Assembly: GCF_900112525.1 (NCBI RefSeq)
Contig: NZ_FOMD01000002.1
Location: 744,001 to 808,000, forward strand
Reading direction: 5' to 3'
Length of the DNA stretch: 64,000 nt
From: Klenkia taihuensis
Lineage (GTDB): Bacteria > Actinomycetota > Actinomycetes > Mycobacteriales > Geodermatophilaceae
Below, one piece after another: positions 25,388-33,942 of this stretch. The translations under genes and the position numbers were made by a program. How positions within the stretch are numbered: position 1 is the stretch's first letter; each line of letters opens with the position of its first letter. Under the pieces are notes generated by a model. That model was given only the letters and a program-made list of their open reading frames with translations, had not been told where the DNA came from and searched no databases.

Positions 25388-27175
25388 GTGAGCACCGGCG
25401 CCGCCGACACCTCCGTCGTGGACGAGGCCACCCTGTCCGGCCTGCGCTGGGACCTGTTGGCGGTCAGCGACGGCGACGACCCCCGCGCCTTCACCGACCT
25501 GCTCGCCGACCACGAGGCCGAGCTCACCGCGGCGTCGTCCGCCCCGCGCTGGCAGGCGTGGTCGCACGCCTTCGCCGCCCGCCGGCTGCTCGCCGAGCAC
25601 GACGCCGAGGCCGCCGGCGCCCAGGTGGTCGCCGCCCGCGCCGCCGCCGAGGACTGCCCGGCCGGCGCCGAGCGCGCCCTGGTGCTGGCCTACCTGGCGC
25701 ACCTGGAGGTGGCCGGCGACCGGTTCGAGGCGGCGCTGCACCTGGCCGTGGACGCCAGCCTCCTCACCGACCAGGTGCCCGCCGACGAGCCCAGCCGCGC
25801 GCTGCACCAGGCGCACCTGTGGCTGTCGCTGGCGCTGACCCGGCTCGACCTCGAGGAGCTGGCGGTCGCCCAGGCGCTGCGCGGCCACCGGGTCGCCGCC
25901 GAGCTCGACGACGACGCCGCCCGCTGGCAGCTGCTGGCGCTGTGCGCCCAGCAGCACGCCGAGCTGGCCCAGACCGTGCACCGGCGCGGCGACGAGGTGC
26001 GGGCCGCCCGGCTCGCCGCGGTCGCGCTGCGCTGCTCGTTCACCGCCACCGACCTGCCGCACGAGCCGGCCGACGCCGAGTCCGACCTGCTGTCGGTCGT
26101 GCACGGCTGGGCGCTGACCCTGGCCGGCGACCTCGAGGACACCCTGCCGGCGCTGCGCCGGGTCCGGGACCGGGTGGCCGCCGAGGGCGGGCCGTGGCTG
26201 CGCGGGTACGCCGACCTGGCCCTGGCCCGGCTGCTCTGCCGGCTGGCCGGCCCCCCGGACGCGCTGGGCCCGCAGGCCGAGGAGGCCGCGGACCTGCTCG
26301 CCGACGCCGCCACGGCGTTCGCGGCGACCGGCGACCGGCGCCGCTACCGCCAGGCGCTGCTCGAGCTCGGCCGCACCACCGCCGCGCTGGGCCGGGCCGC
26401 CGAGGCGCTGCACTGGCTGGAGGCCTACCGCGGCGAGACGGTGCGGATGCACCAGCGCAGCCGCGAGCTGTGGGCCGACCTGTTCGTGCGGCGCTCCCGG
26501 CTGCGGGAGGCCGAGCGGCAGACCGCGCTGATGCGCCGGCACGCCCTGGAGGACCCGCTGACCGGCCTGGGCAACCGGCGCAGCGCCGAGCGGCGGCTGG
26601 CCGAGCTCGACCCGACGGCCGCGCCGCTGGCGCTGGCGGTGGTGGACGTCGACCGGTTCAAGCTGGTCAACGACACGCACTCGCACCTGCACGGCGACGC
26701 CGTCCTGCGCCGGCTGGCCGACCTGCTGCGCCTGCACTGCCGCACCGGCGACGAGGTGTACCGCTGGGCCGGGGACGAGTTCCTCGTGGTGCTGCCCGGC
26801 GCCGGGGAGGCACAGGCGGTGGTGGCGATGGAGCGGCTGCGCCGCGCCGTCGTGCAGTGCGCCTGGGCCGAGCTCGACGTGCGGGACGAGGTCACCGTCA
26901 GCATCGGCATCGCCACCTCCCACCCCGAGACCCCGCGCACCTGGCGGCAGCTGTTCGACGACGCCGACCTGCACCTGTTCGCCGCCAAGCGGTCCGGCCG
27001 GGACCGGGTGCGCACCGGACCCCGCGACGGCGACGACGCCGCGCCCCCGCCGCCCGGTCCGCACACGTCGGTGGACGCGCTGGTGGACGAGCTGCTGGGC
27101 GCCCGCACCCCGCGCTCCCCCGGCTGGGCCTTCGAGCCCGACCCCGACGCGCCCGATCCGGAGCCCGCGCCGTGA
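25388..27175 (+). CDS. Soluble diguanylate cyclase with N-terminal TPR-like helical repeats
   Basis: A 595-residue protein without membrane segments. Residues ~10-370 are Ala/Leu-rich helical hairpins resembling TPR or MalT-like repeats, likely a sensing or partner-binding platform. The GGDEF domain starts at DPLTGLGNRR (~389); the active loop is RWAGDEF with A461 replacing the first Gly, a change found in active cyclases. The RTGD I-site is five residues upstream, so product inhibition is expected. The Pro/Asp-rich C terminus is disordered. GTG 25388 follows GAGGAGAGG. It is clearly paralogous to the next gene. Confidence 0.9.
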   Translation: MSTGAADTSVVDEATLSGLRWDLLAVSDGDDPRAFTDLLADHEAELTAASSAPRWQAWSHAFAARRLLAEHDAEAAGAQVVAARAAAEDCPAGAERALVLAYLAHLEVAGDRFEAALHLAVDASLLTDQVPADEPSRALHQAHLWLSLALTRLDLEELAVAQALRGHRVAAELDDDAARWQLLALCAQQHAELAQTVHRRGDEVRAARLAAVALRCSFTATDLPHEPADAESDLLSVVHGWALTLAGDLEDTLPALRRVRDRVAAEGGPWLRGYADLALARLLCRLAGPPDALGPQAEEAADLLADAATAFAATGDRRRYRQALLELGRTTAALGRAAEALHWLEAYRGETVRMHQRSRELWADLFVRRSRLREAERQTALMRRHALEDPLTGLGNRRSAERRLAELDPTAAPLALAVVDVDRFKLVNDTHSHLHGDAVLRRLADLLRLHCRTGDEVYRWAGDEFLVVLPGAGEAQAVVAMERLRRAVVQCAWAELDVRDEVTVSIGIATSHPETPRTWRQLFDDADLHLFAAKRSGRDRVRTGPRDGDDAAPPPPGPHTSVDALVDELLGARTPRSPGWAFEPDPDAPDPEPAP

Positions 27176-27314
27176 TGCGCCGGGCCCTGGTGCCGCTGGT
27201 GCCCCCGGGACGGCCGGGGCCCCTGGGACGGCCGTGACCCGGCGCGCCCGACGGTCCCGGCGTGGCCCCGACGGAATGCGTGACAGAACGCAGTCCGACG
27301 GGCACAGTGCGCTC

Positions 27315-30059
27315 GTGCCACCGGGGATCCTGCACGAGCAGGTCAGCGTCGCGCTGGCGAACTGGCAGCTCGACGTGGCCGAGGCCCTGCTGGCCGACAC
27401 CGACGCCGACCCCGCCCCGTCGGCGACCAGCGGCGCGCCGCTGACGTCGCTGTCGCGCGCCTGGGCGGACACGCTGCGGGCCGAGCTGCTGGTCCGCCGG
27501 CTGCGGATGGCCGGCTTCACCCTGCTCGGCGACCCGATCGACGACGCGGGCGGGGCCGCCGAGCCCCCGCTGGACCTGCACGGGGGCACCGACCCCGGCG
27601 CGCGGGTGGACACCCGGACGGAGTCCGCCGGGCACGCCGCCGCCGCCATCGCCCTGGTCCGCTCGGCGCGCGCGGCCTTCGACGCCAGCGACGACGACCT
27701 GCAGCGGGCCGCGGGCCTGGCCCGGCACGCCCGCATCGAGCTGCTGTCCCGCCGGGTGGACGCCGCCATGGACGAGGCGGTGGAGGCGGCCAGCCTGCTG
27801 GACCCCGCGCTCCCCCCGTCGCCGCTGCTGGTGCACACCCTGGGCGCGCTGTCGGCGGTGCTGGCCGACCTCGAGCTCATGCCGCTGGCCCTGGACTACC
27901 AGCGCCGCGCCCACCACACCGCGCTGCGGCTGGCCGAGGACGAGCCCGGCCCGGGCGGGACCGGGCTGGTCGGCGACAGCGCCGCCCGGCTGGCCGCGCT
28001 GTGCGCCGAGGTCGGCGAGGGCCTGCTCGACGACGACAGCCCCGACGCCGCCGACCCGCACTTCACCGAGGCCCGCGCGCTGGCCGAGGAGAGCCTGGCC
28101 GGGCTGCCCGAGGGCGACCCGCACCGGCCCACCGCCGAGGTCGTGCTCGGCTCGGCCCTGGTCGGCCTGGGCGAGCACGACGCCGCCGTCGCCACCCTGC
28201 AGCGGGTGGTCGCGGCGGTCCCGGCCGCGCAGGACCGCGCACTGCTGGCCGCCGCCGAGCTCGCCCTCGGCCGGGCCCTGCGCCGGCAGGACCGGGGCAC
28301 GGACGCCGACGACCACCTCGCGCACGCCCTGGCGCTGGCCACCGAGCACGGGCTGCCCCGGCTGCGCCGCTCCGCGCTGCGCGAGCTGTGCACCCTGCAC
28401 GCCGACCTGGACGACGCCGCGCGGGCACTGCCCTACCTGCAGGCCTACCTGGCCGACGAGCTGGACCGCGTCGACGAGCGGCGCACCCGCTGGGTGGAGC
28501 TGTTCGGCCGCCGCAAGAGCCTGCTGGAGACCGAGCGCGCCGCCGGGCAGCTGCGCCGGCAGGCCTACGAGGACCCGCTGACCCACCTGCCCAACCGGCG
28601 CTACGCCGAGGGCCGGCTGGACGGCCTGCTCGCCGCCGGTGCCGCCCCCGCGCTCGCCGTCGTGGACATCGACCACTTCAAGGCGATCAACGACCAGGCC
28701 GGGCACCCCGGCGGGGATGCCGTGCTGCGCGCGGTCGCCCAGCTGCTGGTCGACGGCGTCCGCGACACCGACGAGGTGTGCCGCTGGGCCGGCGACGAGT
28801 TCGTCATCCTGCTGCCCGACACCACCGCCGAGCAGGGCGAGCGGGCCATGGAGCGGATCCGGGCGTCCATCGCCACCAACGACTGGTCCGCGCTCGGCGT
28901 CGACGTCCCGGTGACGATCAGCGCGGGCATCGCCTCGGCGGCCCGCGGCGACGACCGCCGCACGCTGTTCGCCGCCGCCGACGGCGTGCTCTACGACGCC
29001 AAGCGCAGCGGCCGCGACCGGGTCGTCCGGCTGTCCGGGGTCACCCAGACCCGGGCCGCGGACGGCGCCCCCGCCGATCCGCCGCGGCCGGCCGCCCCGG
29101 TGTTCGAGGGCGAGCTGCTCGACCTCGACACGACCCCCGCCGGTGACGCCGCGTCAGCGGACCCGGCGGATAGTGTCACCGACGTGCAGCCGCAGCCGAC
29201 CGACATCCTCTTCGGCGGCCCGCGCGACGTCCCCACCCCGCGCACCGAGCCCGCCCCGCGCACCGAGCAGGACGACGCGGGCGGCTTCGGCCCGCTGCTG
29301 GTGGAGCCCGTGCCCGCGGAGCCGTTCCCCACCCGCCCAGGACCCCGTCCGCGGGTCGCCGGCCGGGTCGTCGGCCCCGCCACCGGGCCCGACACCGTGC
29401 CCGACGCCGGCGAGCCGGCCACCGACCGCACCCCGGCCACCCGCGCACCGCGCACCGGCCCCGAGGTCGTCCGCGCCGGCGGCCGCAGCACCGACCAGGT
29501 GCTGGCGCTGGTCCGCGCCGCCCGCCAGGAGCACCCCGAGCGGCCCGCCGTCGTCGTCGGCGCCCCCGCCGACACCCTGGTCGCGCTGGCCGCCGAGCAC
29601 GACGCCTACACGACCATGGACCACGCCGCGATGGCCGCCGCCGTCGGCCCGCTGCCCGAGCCGCACGGCCGGGTCGTCGTCCTCGGTGCGGGGTCGGTGG
29701 ACGCCGCCGTCGCCGCCGAGGCCGCGTTCCTGGCCCGGGTGGGCGGCACCGAGGTGGTGCGCGTCGAGGACGTCGGCGTCGCGCAGGTGCCGGCGCTGCT
29801 GGCCGACGGGTCGCTGCTGGAGGGCACCGGCTGCGTGGTCGTGGTCGCCGGCACCGACGCCGCCCTGGCCACCGCGGTCGCGCAGGTCACCGAGGTGCCC
29901 GTCGTCGCCGTCCCCACGTCCGCGGGGCAGTCCGGGGCGTTCGGCGGCATCGGCGCGCTGATGACGATGCTGAACTCCGGGACCGCCGGCGTGGTGGTCT
30001 CCGCGATCGACGACGGCTGCGCCGCCGGGGTCGTCGCCGCCCGCATCGCCCGGCGCTGA
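27315..30059 (+). CDS. Diguanylate cyclase fused to a C-terminal LarB/AIR-carboxylase-like domain
   Basis: About 914 residues in one uninterrupted frame. Residues ~1-400 are TPR-like helices as in the preceding paralogue; GGDEF ~410-570 carries RWAGDEF (A492) and the RDTD I-site. A ~140-residue Pro/Thr-rich linker follows, then residues ~715-914 match LarB: GPEVVRAGGRSTDQVLALVRAA, VVVVAGTDAALATAVAQV, VVAVPTSAGQSGAFGG and ALMTMLNSGTAG. LarB makes the pyridinium precursor of the nickel-pincer cofactor through a cysteine in LNSC; here it is Gly, although IDDGC has a nearby Cys. GTG 27315 is six bases after CACAGT (GTG 27234 and ATG 27276 are alternatives). An in-frame GTG at 29184, seven bases after TAGTGT, may also start the LarB part alone. 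Confidence 0.8.
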   Translation: MPPGILHEQVSVALANWQLDVAEALLADTDADPAPSATSGAPLTSLSRAWADTLRAELLVRRLRMAGFTLLGDPIDDAGGAAEPPLDLHGGTDPGARVDTRTESAGHAAAAIALVRSARAAFDASDDDLQRAAGLARHARIELLSRRVDAAMDEAVEAASLLDPALPPSPLLVHTLGALSAVLADLELMPLALDYQRRAHHTALRLAEDEPGPGGTGLVGDSAARLAALCAEVGEGLLDDDSPDAADPHFTEARALAEESLAGLPEGDPHRPTAEVVLGSALVGLGEHDAAVATLQRVVAAVPAAQDRALLAAAELALGRALRRQDRGTDADDHLAHALALATEHGLPRLRRSALRELCTLHADLDDAARALPYLQAYLADELDRVDERRTRWVELFGRRKSLLETERAAGQLRRQAYEDPLTHLPNRRYAEGRLDGLLAAGAAPALAVVDIDHFKAINDQAGHPGGDAVLRAVAQLLVDGVRDTDEVCRWAGDEFVILLPDTTAEQGERAMERIRASIATNDWSALGVDVPVTISAGIASAARGDDRRTLFAAADGVLYDAKRSGRDRVVRLSGVTQTRAADGAPADPPRPAAPVFEGELLDLDTTPAGDAASADPADSVTDVQPQPTDILFGGPRDVPTPRTEPAPRTEQDDAGGFGPLLVEPVPAEPFPTRPGPRPRVAGRVVGPATGPDTVPDAGEPATDRTPATRAPRTGPEVVRAGGRSTDQVLALVRAARQEHPERPAVVVGAPADTLVALAAEHDAYTTMDHAAMAAAVGPLPEPHGRVVVLGAGSVDAAVAAEAAFLARVGGTEVVRVEDVGVAQVPALLADGSLLEGTGCVVVVAGTDAALATAVAQVTEVPVVAVPTSAGQSGAFGGIGALMTMLNSGTAGVVVSAIDDGCAAGVVAARIARR

Positions 30060-30110: not shown

Positions 30111-30280
30111 TAGGGTCCTCTCCCAGCGAAGGGGAGTAGCCCCCCAACATCGTGGTCGACATGCTGGCGCTCCGGCGCCCGGTCACGAGGGCCCCGGGAG
30201 ACCGGGGCGGGCGAGACCTTCGACCCAGGTACACCCATGTGCCGGGTCGAGGTCTCGCGCGGACCCGGCCCGGCCGGTCG
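30111..30280 (+). promoter_or_regulatory. yybP-ykoY manganese riboswitch with its promoter
   Basis: A TAGGGT -10-like hexamer (30111-30116) precedes AGCGAAGGGGAGTAGCCCCC (30125-30144), the conserved L1 strand of the yybP-ykoY class. GCGAGACCTTCGACCC (from ~30209) is the conserved L3 strand with ACCTT, and it pairs with GGGTCGAGGTCTCGC (~30243-30259) in the second arm. The element ends about 20 bases before the ribosome binding site of a TMEM165/GDT1 transporter, the usual client of this Mn2+-sensing riboswitch. Mn2+ binding is expected to switch expression on. The 3' limit is approximate. Confidence 0.85.
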
Positions 30281-30298
30281 CAGAGAGGCCCACCCCGA

Positions 30299-30886
30299 GT
30301 GGACGCAGTCTTCTACAGCACCGTGCTCAGCTTCGGTGTCGTCTTCGTCGCCGAGCTCGGCGACAAGTCCCAGCTCATGGCGCTCACCTTCGCCACCCGC
30401 TACAAGGTGGTGCCCACCCTCATCGGCATCACGATCGCCACCGCGGTCGTGCACCTGGCCTCGGTGGGCATCGGCTACGGCCTGGGTGTCTCGCTGCCCA
30501 CCGGCTGGATCAGCCTGGTCGCGGCGCTGGCCTTCATCGCCTTCGGCTTCTGGACCCTGCGTGGCGACGAGCTCAGCGACGACGAGAAGGACAAGGTCAA
30601 CCGGACGACGAAGTCGGCGGTCATCGCCGTCGGCACCGCGTTCTTCCTCGCCGAGCTGGGCGACAAGACCATGCTGGCCACCATCACGCTGGCCACCGAC
30701 CACGGCTGGTTCGGCACCTGGCTGGGCTCCACCCTCGGCATGGTCGCCGCCGACGCGCTGGCCATCCTGGTCGGCCGCTGGCTGGGCAGGAGCCTGCCGG
30801 AGAAGACCATCAAGTACGGCGCCGCGGCGCTGTTCTTCCTCTTCGGCGCCTGGCTGCTGGTCGAGGCCGTCACCGAGCTGACCTGA
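30299..30886 (+). CDS. TMEM165/GDT1 (UPF0016) family manganese exporter
   Basis: A 195-residue protein with six to seven transmembrane helices in two repeats, each with the family signature: FVAELGDKSQLMALTFATRY (~18-37) and FFLAELGDKTMLATITLA (~117-134). The ExGD-K/R acidic residues form the cation site. Bacterial relatives such as MneA export Mn2+ and protect from manganese excess. GTG 30299 follows AGAGAGG (30282-30288). The manganese riboswitch directly upstream supports the metal assignment. The frame continues upstream through the riboswitch but those codons are not expected to be translated. Confidence 0.93.
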   Translation: MDAVFYSTVLSFGVVFVAELGDKSQLMALTFATRYKVVPTLIGITIATAVVHLASVGIGYGLGVSLPTGWISLVAALAFIAFGFWTLRGDELSDDEKDKVNRTTKSAVIAVGTAFFLAELGDKTMLATITLATDHGWFGTWLGSTLGMVAADALAILVGRWLGRSLPEKTIKYGAAALFFLFGAWLLVEAVTELT

Positions 30887-30907: not shown

Positions 30908-31921
30908 TCAGGGTTCGGTGCGCCGCTCGGCCATGGCGGCCAGCCGGTCGAGGGCCTCCACGTTGCGCCGGCGCAGCACGGCCTCGGACAGCGGGTTGTG
31001 CACCCACTTGCCGGGCCCGCTGACCGGTTGCTCGGTCATGGTCACCCGGGTGCCGCCGTCCTCGCTGCGCAGGTCCAGCTCCACCCGGGCCTCGCCCAGC
31101 GGCCAGCCCTGCGCCAGCAGCACCAGCCGGCTGGCGGGCTTCGAGACCTCGACGCGGGCCTCGTCGTCCAGGGTCAGGGGCCAGCTGCCCTGGCTGTGGT
31201 GGAGCACCGCGCCGGCCGCGGGCCAGGCGGCGTCGACGGCGCGCATGTGCGAGGCGCCGACCACCCAGTTGCTGTAGGACCAGCCGTCGGCGAGCACGTC
31301 CCAGACGGCGGTGGGCGGGGCGTCGACGTGCCGGGAGACGGTGGCCATCGCCCCATCGTGTCGCGGCCGGATCGGTTCCGCACCGGCAGCGGCGCTTGCG
31401 CTGGTGAGGCGTTCCCGCATCCCGACGGCGAGCCCCGCGACGGTCAGCCGGTCGGCCGCACCGCCCAGCACGCGGGCCAGCCGCTCGTGCCGCACCCCGG
31501 CCAGCCGCAGCCGCAGCTGCACCCGGGTGCCGCCGTCCCGGTCGTGCAGCACGATCGCCCAGCTGAGCCGGACGTGGTCACGGACCGAGCGGTGCACCAG
31601 CACGTGCGGCGGGTCCATCCGGTGCGCGGTGAAGGTGGCGTGCCGGCCGCCCCAGTCGGGGATCGTGTCGCCGACCTGCAGGCCGGCGAGCGCCGGGTCC
31701 AGGTGCCGCAGGCCGCGGCGGGCCCGCGGGGTGAGCGCGTCGACCCGGCGCGGCAGGTAGTAGCCGCCCCGGCGCTTGCCCAGCTGCACGAACCAGGGCC
31801 AGACGTCGGCCGGGGGTGCAGGCAGGTCGAAGGCGGTGTCCATCGCGACGGTGGCGTCGGGGACGACGTCGTCCCCGGGCAGGACGGCGGCCCGCTCGGC
31901 CGCCGTCGGCCGCACGCTCAC
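30908..31921 (-). CDS. Tandem SRPBCC (START/Bet v1-like) domain protein
   Basis: A 337-residue protein with two SRPBCC lipid-binding folds in one frame. Domain 1 (~18-180): TAFDLPAPPADVWPWFVQLGKRRGGYY, then PHVLVHRSVRDHVRLSWAIVL. Domain 2 (~192-335): ATVSRHVDAPPTAVWDVLADGWSYSNWVVG, ending with GTRVTMTEQPVSGPGKWVHNP and a long C-terminal helix. Both types are normally separate proteins. GTG 31921 overlaps the nadE stop (GTGA). An internal ATG at 31348, six bases after CACGAT, would make domain 2 alone. Ligands are unknown; such folds bind or process hydrophobic compounds. Confidence 0.8.
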   Translation of the reverse strand: MSVRPTAAERAAVLPGDDVVPDATVAMDTAFDLPAPPADVWPWFVQLGKRRGGYYLPRRVDALTPRARRGLRHLDPALAGLQVGDTIPDWGGRHATFTAHRMDPPHVLVHRSVRDHVRLSWAIVLHDRDGGTRVQLRLRLAGVRHERLARVLGGAADRLTVAGLAVGMRERLTSASAAAGAEPIRPRHDGAMATVSRHVDAPPTAVWDVLADGWSYSNWVVGASHMRAVDAAWPAAGAVLHHSQGSWPLTLDDEARVEVSKPASRLVLLAQGWPLGEARVELDLRSEDGGTRVTMTEQPVSGPGKWVHNPLSEAVLRRRNVEALDRLAAMAERRTEP

Positions 31922-33942
31922 CCCGGGACGTTCGCGCGGAGCTCGGCCAGCCACAGCGCGGCGGAGCCGTCGGACGGCGCCCGCCAGTCACCGCGCGGGG
32001 ACAGCGACCCGCCGGCGCTGACCTTGGGGCCGTTGGGCAGCGCCGAACGCTTGAACTGGCTGAAACCGAAGAAGCGCTGGCAGAACACCTCGAGCCAGCG
32101 CCGGATCTCGGGCAGGTCGTAGGCCACCCGCTTGGCCTCGGGGTAGGCGTGCGGCCAGTCCCCGGCGTCGGCGTCCCGCCAGGCGTGCCAGGCGAGGAAG
32201 GCGATCTTGCTCGGCCGGAAGCCGTAGCGGAGGACGTGGAAGAGGGTGAAGTCCTGCAGCGCGTAGGGGCCGACGCTGGCCTCGGTGGACTGCGCGGTCT
32301 CCCCCGGCACCAGCTCGGGGCTGATCTCGGTGTCCACGATCGACTGCAGGGTGGCGCCGACCTCGTCGTCGAACTGGCCGGTGGCGATGACCCAGCGGAT
32401 GAGGTGCTGGATGAAGGTCTTCGGGATGCCGCCGTTGACGTTGTAGTGGCTCATCTGGTCGCCGACCCCGTAGGTGGCCCAGCCCAGCGCGAGCTCGGAG
32501 AGGTCGCCGGTGCCCAGCACGACGCCGCCGCGCTGGTTGGCGATCCGGAACAGGTAGTCGGTGCGCAGACCGGCCTGCACGTTCTCGAAGGTGACGTCGT
32601 AGACCGGCTCGCCGTCGCCCGCCGGGTGACCCATGTTCTGCAGCATCAGCGTCGCGGTGGGCTGGATGTCCAGCTCGGCGGCGGTGACGCCGAGGGCGCG
32701 CATGAGGGCCCAGGCGTTGCCCTTGGTGTGGTCGCTGGTGGCGAACCCCGGCATGGTGAACGCCAAGATGTCGCTGCGGGGCCGGCCTGCCTTGTCCATC
32801 ACCTGGGCCGCGACGATCAGGGCGTGGGTGGAGTCCAGCCCGCCGCTGACCCCGATGACGACCTTCGGGTCCCCGATCGCGGCCAGCCGCTGCGCGAGGC
32901 CGGCGACCTGGATGTTGTAGGCCTCGTAGCAGTCCTGCTCGAGGCGGGCGTCGTCGCTGGGCACGAACGGGAACCGCTCGAGCTCCCGGCGCAGGCCGAG
33001 GTCGTCGTCCGGCGGGTCGAGGGTGAACTCGACGGTGCGGACCGACGGCGCGACGTGCCGGCGGTTGTCGTCGAAGGTGCCCATGCGGGCGCGCTCCTGG
33101 CGGAGCAGGTCCAGGTCGACGTCGGCGACGGCGCGGCGGTCGCCGTCGGGGAAGCGGTCGGTCTCGGCGAGCAGGACGCCGTTCTCGTAGACCAGGGTCT
33201 GGCCGTCCCAGGACAGGTCGGTGGTGGACTCGCCCTCGCCGGCGGCGGCGTAGACGTAGGCGGCCAGGCACCTGCTGGACGCCGACCGCACGAGCAGCCG
33301 GCGGTCCTCGGCCCGGCCGACGGTGATCGGCGAGCCCGACAGGTTGACCAGCACGGTGGCGCCGGCCAGCGCGGCCTCGGCGCTGGGCGGGACGGGCACC
33401 CACATGTCCTCGCAGACCTCGGCGTGCAGCACCAGGCCGGGGACGTCGGTGGCGGCGAAGAGCAGGTCGGGGCCGAACGGGACTGCTCTTCCGTTCACCC
33501 GGATCTCGCCCCCCGCTTGGTCGTCGCCGGGGGCGAGCTGGCGGCGCTCGTAGAACTCGCGGTAGGTCGGCAGGTAGGACTTGGGGGCGACGCCGAGGAC
33601 CCGGCCGCGGTGGACGACGACCGCGCAGTTGTAGACGCGGTTGCGGTGCCGGAGCGGGGCGCCGACGACCAGCACCGGCAGCAGGTCGCGGGACCCCTCG
33701 ACCAGCTGGACCAGCGCGGTCTCGACGGCGTCCAGCAGCGGGTCCTGCAGCAGCAGGTCGTCGATGGAGTAGCCCGACAGGGTCAGCTCGGGGAACACCG
33801 CGACGGCGACGCCCTCGTCGGCGCAGGCCCGGGCCTGGCGGAGGACGGCGTCGGCGTTGGCCGGCGGGTCGGCGAGCGCGGTGCGCTGCGTGCAGGCCGC
33901 CACCCGCGCGAACCCGTGCCGGTAGACCGAGGTGAACCCCAT
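31918..33942 (-). CDS. nadE: Glutamine-dependent NAD+ synthetase
   Basis: A 674-residue two-domain enzyme that amidates deamido-NAD+ to NAD+. The nitrilase-type glutaminase domain has its triad at E52 (FPELTLSGYS), K121 (PKSYLPTYREFYE) and C177 (EVCEDMW), nearly the same numbers as M. tuberculosis NadE. The synthetase domain starts near 340 and carries the PP-loop GVSGGLDSTHALIV, then GTGDLSELALGWATYGVGD and the C-terminal KRSALPNGPKVS. Length is usual for the octameric actinobacterial type, in which ammonia tunnels between domains. ATG 33942 is seven bases after GACACT. The double SRPBCC gene is translationally coupled downstream. Confidence 0.97.
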   Translation of the reverse strand: MGFTSVYRHGFARVAACTQRTALADPPANADAVLRQARACADEGVAVAVFPELTLSGYSIDDLLLQDPLLDAVETALVQLVEGSRDLLPVLVVGAPLRHRNRVYNCAVVVHRGRVLGVAPKSYLPTYREFYERRQLAPGDDQAGGEIRVNGRAVPFGPDLLFAATDVPGLVLHAEVCEDMWVPVPPSAEAALAGATVLVNLSGSPITVGRAEDRRLLVRSASSRCLAAYVYAAAGEGESTTDLSWDGQTLVYENGVLLAETDRFPDGDRRAVADVDLDLLRQERARMGTFDDNRRHVAPSVRTVEFTLDPPDDDLGLRRELERFPFVPSDDARLEQDCYEAYNIQVAGLAQRLAAIGDPKVVIGVSGGLDSTHALIVAAQVMDKAGRPRSDILAFTMPGFATSDHTKGNAWALMRALGVTAAELDIQPTATLMLQNMGHPAGDGEPVYDVTFENVQAGLRTDYLFRIANQRGGVVLGTGDLSELALGWATYGVGDQMSHYNVNGGIPKTFIQHLIRWVIATGQFDDEVGATLQSIVDTEISPELVPGETAQSTEASVGPYALQDFTLFHVLRYGFRPSKIAFLAWHAWRDADAGDWPHAYPEAKRVAYDLPEIRRWLEVFCQRFFGFSQFKRSALPNGPKVSAGGSLSPRGDWRAPSDGSAALWLAELRANVPG

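Follow-up and report, generated by a model that had tools for sequence, protein, structure and literature searches.

The window analysed here is a stretch of 64,000 nucleotides from the genome of Klenkia taihuensis, a member of the Geodermatophilaceae. On its plus strand, one open frame of 914 codons (27315..30059) joins a TPR-like region, a GGDEF domain and a domain resembling LarB. Three codons are candidates for the start of this fused gene, GTG at 27234, ATG at 27276 and GTG at 27315, and the choice among them is unsure. The motif HSALVPPG around GTG 27315 (window 27276-27326) is kept across genera, even in the part that precedes this codon, so translation may begin further upstream.

The first 395 residues (27315..28499, plus strand) form a TPR-like helical region. 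Its sequence support is weak, consisting of Pfam TPR matches such as PF17874 (25 bits, below cut-off) together with predicted helices, and in the structure prediction a long helix at residues 368-417 closes it. The region is present in 37 of 46 Geodermatophilaceae genomes. Residues 417-569 (28563..29021, plus strand) are a diguanylate cyclase domain, matched by PF00990 at 132.7 bits (cut-off 23.8). Its active-site motif is AGDEF (residues 492-496), against the GG[DE]EF consensus of diguanylate cyclases, and an I-site, RDTD (residues 483-486), stands five residues before it; the two span 28761..28802 on the plus strand. A Pro-rich linker follows (29046..29438, plus strand), predicted to be disordered, with pLDDT below 50 over most of residues 570-713. 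Mean pairwise identity is 0.40 in the linker vs 0.72-0.86 in the domains; the full-length alignment held the window and 30 of the 33 complete relatives of the first set, three near-duplicates having been left out. One short patch in the otherwise poorly conserved linker, GFxxLL (window ~29280-29300, residues 656-662), is conserved and is possibly a docking motif. The frame ends in the pseudo-LarB domain, residues 709-914 (29439..30056, plus strand), which is matched by the NCBIfam LarB profile NF033503. The original prediction had described TPR-like repeats, an AGDEF cyclase with an I-site, a Pro-rich linker and a LarB-like domain in one frame, and the open frame and the PF00990 and NF033503 matches bear this out, with the TPR part the weak one. 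The fusion is real.

Directly upstream lies a paralogue (25388..27175, plus strand; PF00990 112.1 bits). It shares the TPR-like region and an AGDEF cyclase with RxxD, ends soon after the cyclase and, unlike the fused protein, has no LarB match. Of 86 relative loci (drawn in part from the best 80 of 277 relatives), 78 have this paralogue and the other eight are cut short by contig ends. A prephenate dehydratase gene adjoins the pair in 105 of 115 relative loci, counting duplicates and again including the best 80 of 277.

Downstream, a sub-threshold match to the manganese riboswitch RF00080 (30119-30208, plus strand; 22.3 bits vs a gathering score of 45) lies before a GDT1-type cation antiporter gene (30152-30886, plus strand). 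An RNA-family search of five loci gave a manganese match in K. brasiliensis only, at the same place (L094 6684-6820) and also below the cut-off of 45, at 30.1 bits. A riboswitch for the GDT1-type gene, outside the fusion, is plausible. The suggestion that a manganese-controlled exporter next door might tie the fused protein to a metal was rejected, since the window and K. brasiliensis are the sole cases in which the fused gene is immediately followed by the GDT1-type gene. Beyond it, on the minus strand, lies a NAD synthase gene (31918-33942; NF002730, 1086.8 bits).

A profile search of the C-terminal domain had been proposed along with the original prediction, and it supports the LarB relationship. 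NF033503 matches residues 709-913 at 129.9 bits (E 1e-37), below its equivalog cut-off of 175, and the closest PDB chains by sequence are LarB entries (E ~4e-27). The predicted domain structure matches the LarB and PurE folds, whereas the sequence matches to PurE/AIR carboxylase profiles are below their cut-offs (PF00731, 28.4 bits vs 30; TIGR01162, 18.5 vs 149.6) and far below LarB-level similarity. The stretch before about LarB residue 45 is not aligned in the fused domain.

To place the fusion among relatives, 78 related genomes, 46 of them Geodermatophilaceae, were profile-searched for LarB. A divergent match below the cut-off of 175 (60.9-174.7 bits) occurs, among the matches listed, in 36 of the 46 family genomes, and all 36 of these loci, the window included, were retrieved. 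Ten family genomes have no such match among those listed: in G007 the contig ends before the LarB part, and the other nine, from three genera, are fragmented assemblies in which an intact LarB is present. A wider collection comprised 87 distinct loci, distinctness being judged on the last 150 residues. It was drawn from the family loci above, the window included, and from 80 named loci that are the best 80 of 277 relatives, so the collection leans to close relatives. Nearly all of the loci are from Geodermatophilaceae; two named records are labelled otherwise, one as an unverified 'Bacillus sp.' and one as a 'Frankiales' MAG. A profile of the fused domain run against 394 genomes of the class scored above 300 bits, among the matches listed, in two alone, both Geodermatophilaceae, and the best other match reached 223 bits.

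The TPR region and the LarB domain share one frame at 78 of the 87 distinct loci (including the best 80 of 277 relatives), a count that includes one locus, L164, cut at its 3' end. Of the remaining nine, eight lose their 5' side to a contig end. The ninth, L046 from G040, is frameshifted within the linker and is the sole locus with the two parts in different frames. The cyclase motif at the 78 one-frame loci (best 80 of 277 included) is AGDEF in 73 and AGDEY in five, and RxxD stands five residues ahead of AGDE[FY] in all 78. The earlier suggestion that the stop between two genes had been lost, taken as a chance event in this one genome, finds no support, given the divergent LarB in 36 of 46 family genomes and the one-frame count, and a lost stop codon or an assembly error was rejected as the cause of the fusion on that count. 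Relatives with separate parts and a canonical LNSC LarB had been named as the case that would speak against the fusion. That case applies only in part: intact LarBs do occur, in 30 of the 46 family genomes, but in fusion genomes they are an extra gene, and only in G040 are the two parts in different frames.

Selection on the domain was estimated from dN/dS over 13 pairs. The LarB part ranged from 0.07 to 0.48, next to 0.01-0.30 in the cyclase and 0.36-1.15 in the linker; intact LarBs gave 0.08-0.27 over nine pairs. The LarB part also has low values between genomes without larC (window/L062, 0.22). The pseudo-LarB is thus constrained, somewhat less than its enzymatic relative. A few copies look eroded (G010, which has a deletion, and G039).

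LarB is reportedly, from the title of a 2021 PNAS paper, an enzyme with a cysteinyl-pyridine intermediate formed by its catalytic cysteine. When the frame is aligned to L. plantarum LarB, the codon at the place of this residue, Cys221, is that of Gly889 (29979..29981, plus strand), within LNSG. The missing cysteine was part of the original prediction and proves general: across the 87 distinct loci (best 80 of 277 relatives included) the position holds Ala in 67, Ser in eight, Thr in five, Gly in four, Pro in two and a gap in one, so that none of the 86 loci with a residue there has the catalytic Cys. The Cys of IDDGC, proposed as standing in its place, is present in just 3 of the 88 fused rows and was rejected as a conserved substitute. 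A Cys at LarB place 172 was also set aside; it is found in 87 of 88 fused rows, but also in 8 of 26 intact LarBs.

The loss extends beyond the cysteine. Compared with the LarB of PDB entries 7mj0, 7mj1, 7mj2, 8soq, 8stc and 8std, the fused domain is without Cys221, Ser127, Lys57, Arg159 and Tyr204. Across the 88 fused rows, Lys57, Thr79, Ser127, Arg159, Gly181, Val202, Tyr204, Cys221 and Gly235 stand at 0%, while Lys57, Ser127, Arg159 and Tyr204 are found in at least 95% of the 26 intact LarBs. By their titles, three deposited LarB entries carry a change at Ser127, a hint that this residue matters. Counting as LarB-invariant the 66 positions that are at least 95% identical in the 26 intact LarBs and have the same residue in L. 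plantarum, the fused rows keep 28 at 90% or more and have changed 38. Three positions carry a new fixed residue and 22 are newly constrained. New polar residues have been fixed at Lys57 (Arg, 86/87), Gly156 (Arg, 82) and Tyr204 (Gln, 71), and the window departs from this at the 156 place, with Gln instead of Arg. Asp128, Glu134, Asp151 and Asp231 are kept at 98-100%. The intact set was drawn from 30 fetched intact-LarB loci, of which 26 passed a motif filter that includes the catalytic motif, so its 100% Cys is partly by choice; the Cys was seen in three of the four dropped loci, L013, L015 and L018, the fourth being L033. The count of genomes with a LarB over cut-off, 40 of 78, does not depend on this filter.

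Whether the domain still serves the Lar pathway can be judged from the company it keeps. LarB works in genomes that have larC and larE, and the original prediction found neither in the window. This extends to the whole source genome, which has no larC match and, over cut-off, neither larE (one match, 24.5 bits vs 150) nor LarB (two matches, 133.6 bits for the fused copy and 23.6 for another). In 22 of the 24 fused genomes that have larC, this gene follows the fused one on its strand at no more than 6 kb, and in 18 at no more than 1 kb, most of these at 230-370 bases, as between the profile matches of ordinary larB-larC pairs. At the level of loci, 47 of the 87 (best 80 of 277 relatives included) have larC on the same strand, at most 2.5 kb downstream. 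Outside the Geodermatophilaceae, an intact larB lies less than 1 kb before larC in all ten genomes with both, and among the 21 genomes with the fusion, larC and an intact LarB, the intact LarB is next to larC in two (G020 and G034) and elsewhere in 19. From the position of larC, the fused gene appears to occupy the ancestral place of larB.

Across the 46 family genomes, larC and the intact LarB occur together (Fisher p 7e-8), and no such association holds for the fusion (Fisher p 0.70). All 12 fused genomes without a detected larC, K. taihuensis among them, are also without an intact LarB over cut-off, and since the domain is kept there, it has no role in nickel-pincer synthesis in these genomes. 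These 12 genomes are spread over five genera in which some other members carry larC, a pattern that suggests repeated loss. The retained role of the pseudo-LarB therefore looks independent of the original pathway of LarB. Three genomes, G008, G026 and G043, have larC and no intact LarB over cut-off, and their fused copies are without the Cys; G008 is 73% complete and contains a fragment of a LarB N-terminus, and G026 has a weak larC match (123.5 bits). A Lar role of the fused domain is possible in these three. At L065 (G043) and L047 (G026), larC stands beside a Cys-less fused gene, as could be seen with a decaying pathway, an assembly gap or an unrecognised LarB.

In a tree, the fused domains form one group (support 100/100) on a long stem, and the tree does not place which intact LarB this clade split from. 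In intact LarBs of fusion-bearing genomes the catalytic motif is often LTAC instead of LNSC; nine such rows (L019, L020, L023-L027, L030 and L031) form one group (support 100/99), and none of the nine has a larC neighbour. No GGDEF or TPR match was found near 20 intact-LarB loci at E 1e-4, several of these loci being cut by contig ends, or at five outgroup loci chosen for long frames.

Taken as a whole, the observations are best explained by a pseudoenzyme that a diguanylate cyclase has taken up as a module for regulation or oligomerisation, a reading to which a probability of roughly 0.6 is given. The idea that a fold of the nucleotide-binding type was recruited to c-di-GMP signalling stands as the leading one. 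A narrower reading, possible and distinctly less probable, is that the domain is a scaffold only, a PurE/LarB assembly kept to cluster GGDEF domains with no sensing of a ligand. It would fit the match to both folds, the replacement of pocket residues while many small and core residues stay, and the small or hydrophobic character of many of the 22 newly constrained positions, but the fixed Arg at 57, Arg at 156 and Gln at 204 look like a remodelled site. Another reading is an altered enzyme, which without the Cys would not carboxylate and might hydrolyse NaAD or NAD or act on another nucleotide. LarB itself hydrolyses the phosphoanhydride of NaAD, on which it acts, according to PMC11796402 and PMC9283937, and the four acidic residues kept at 98-100% would suit such a chemistry; no fused row has Ser127, Arg159 or Tyr204, and an altered enzyme is improbable.

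The pseudo-LarB might also be a metabolite gauge that senses NaAD or NAD and so couples c-di-GMP production to the NAD pool, which is a rather doubtful proposal. NAD synthase uses NaAD, and in all nine Klenkia and Goekera genomes with both on one contig its gene follows the fused gene at a distance of 1.8-9.3 kb (search threshold E up to 1e-100). In other genera it was not found within flanks of 3-6 kb, so the neighbourhood, limited to the genus of the window and Goekera, may be one inherited arrangement and is weak support. A sensor of a Lar intermediate, linking c-di-GMP to the nickel-pincer pathway, would account for larC downstream at 47 of the 87 loci (best 80 of 277 included); it can be given almost no weight, because the fusion does not track larC and is kept in the 12 genomes, K. 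taihuensis included, that have neither larC nor an intact LarB. Only slightly less remote is an accident, that is, read-through, a sequencing error or a functionless, decaying leftover of larB. The eroded copies in G010 and G039 and the frame change in G040 are what it would predict, while the single frame at 78 of 87 loci (best 80 of 277 included) and the restrained nonsynonymous change, also between genomes without larC, stand against it.

Under the captured-pseudoenzyme reading, a TPR-GGDEF gene with a tandem paralogue would have fused in frame, in an ancestor within the Geodermatophilaceae, with a larB adjoining larC. The captured domain would then have lost its carboxylase residues, Cys221, Ser127 and others, and with them probably its enzymatic activity, while a separate intact LarB would normally serve the nickel-pincer pathway where that pathway was kept. 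What remains would be an accessory module at the C-terminus of a diguanylate cyclase that looks active. PurE-type oligomers are octamers, and the module may assemble the protein through an oligomer of the PurE/LarB type, bind a dinucleotide-type ligand, or both. NaAD and NAD occur without the Lar pathway, and since LarB acts on NaAD and both molecules exist in that setting, they are the favoured putative ligands. Several of the replaced positions may also serve nucleotide binding, so the losses could just as well have abolished it and left the pocket empty. Control would run from the module to the cyclase: through the flexible linker it would alter GGDEF pairing and hence the amount of c-di-GMP, and input from the TPR region would arrive through the long helix ahead of the cyclase.

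A cyclase with an accessory domain is a known kind of protein. V. cholerae, of another phylum, provides one comparison in VCA0965. This protein shares the AGDEF variant and the RXXD inhibition site with the fused cyclase and is active as an AGDEF cyclase according to the abstract of PMC3974145, where, unlike the fused protein, it is not described with a LarB-like domain. For the Geodermatophilaceae, PMC8325347 gives a c-di-GMP receptor, the twin-motif RsiG, in 16 of 16 species, so the signal has a known kind of target in the family. The fused domain differs from known LarB by its fusion to a cyclase and its retention without the Lar pathway. Open papers were searched, subscription ones being outside the scope, and none paired GGDEF with LarB or with AIR carboxylase, or Geodermatophilaceae with GGDEF; in keeping with the original prediction, which knew of no described system of such a layout, no description of a LarB-fold module on a cyclase was found in them.

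The fused gene offers a traceable case in which an enzyme gene was absorbed by a neighbouring signalling gene and lost its catalytic residues, with an intact copy elsewhere as backup. In what looks like several separate lineages, the pseudo-LarB has outlived its own pathway. An automatic LarB label on such proteins would wrongly predict nickel-pincer synthesis in genomes without the rest of the pathway. If the domain does bind NaAD or NAD, then NAD metabolism would be tied to c-di-GMP in these bacteria via one domain.
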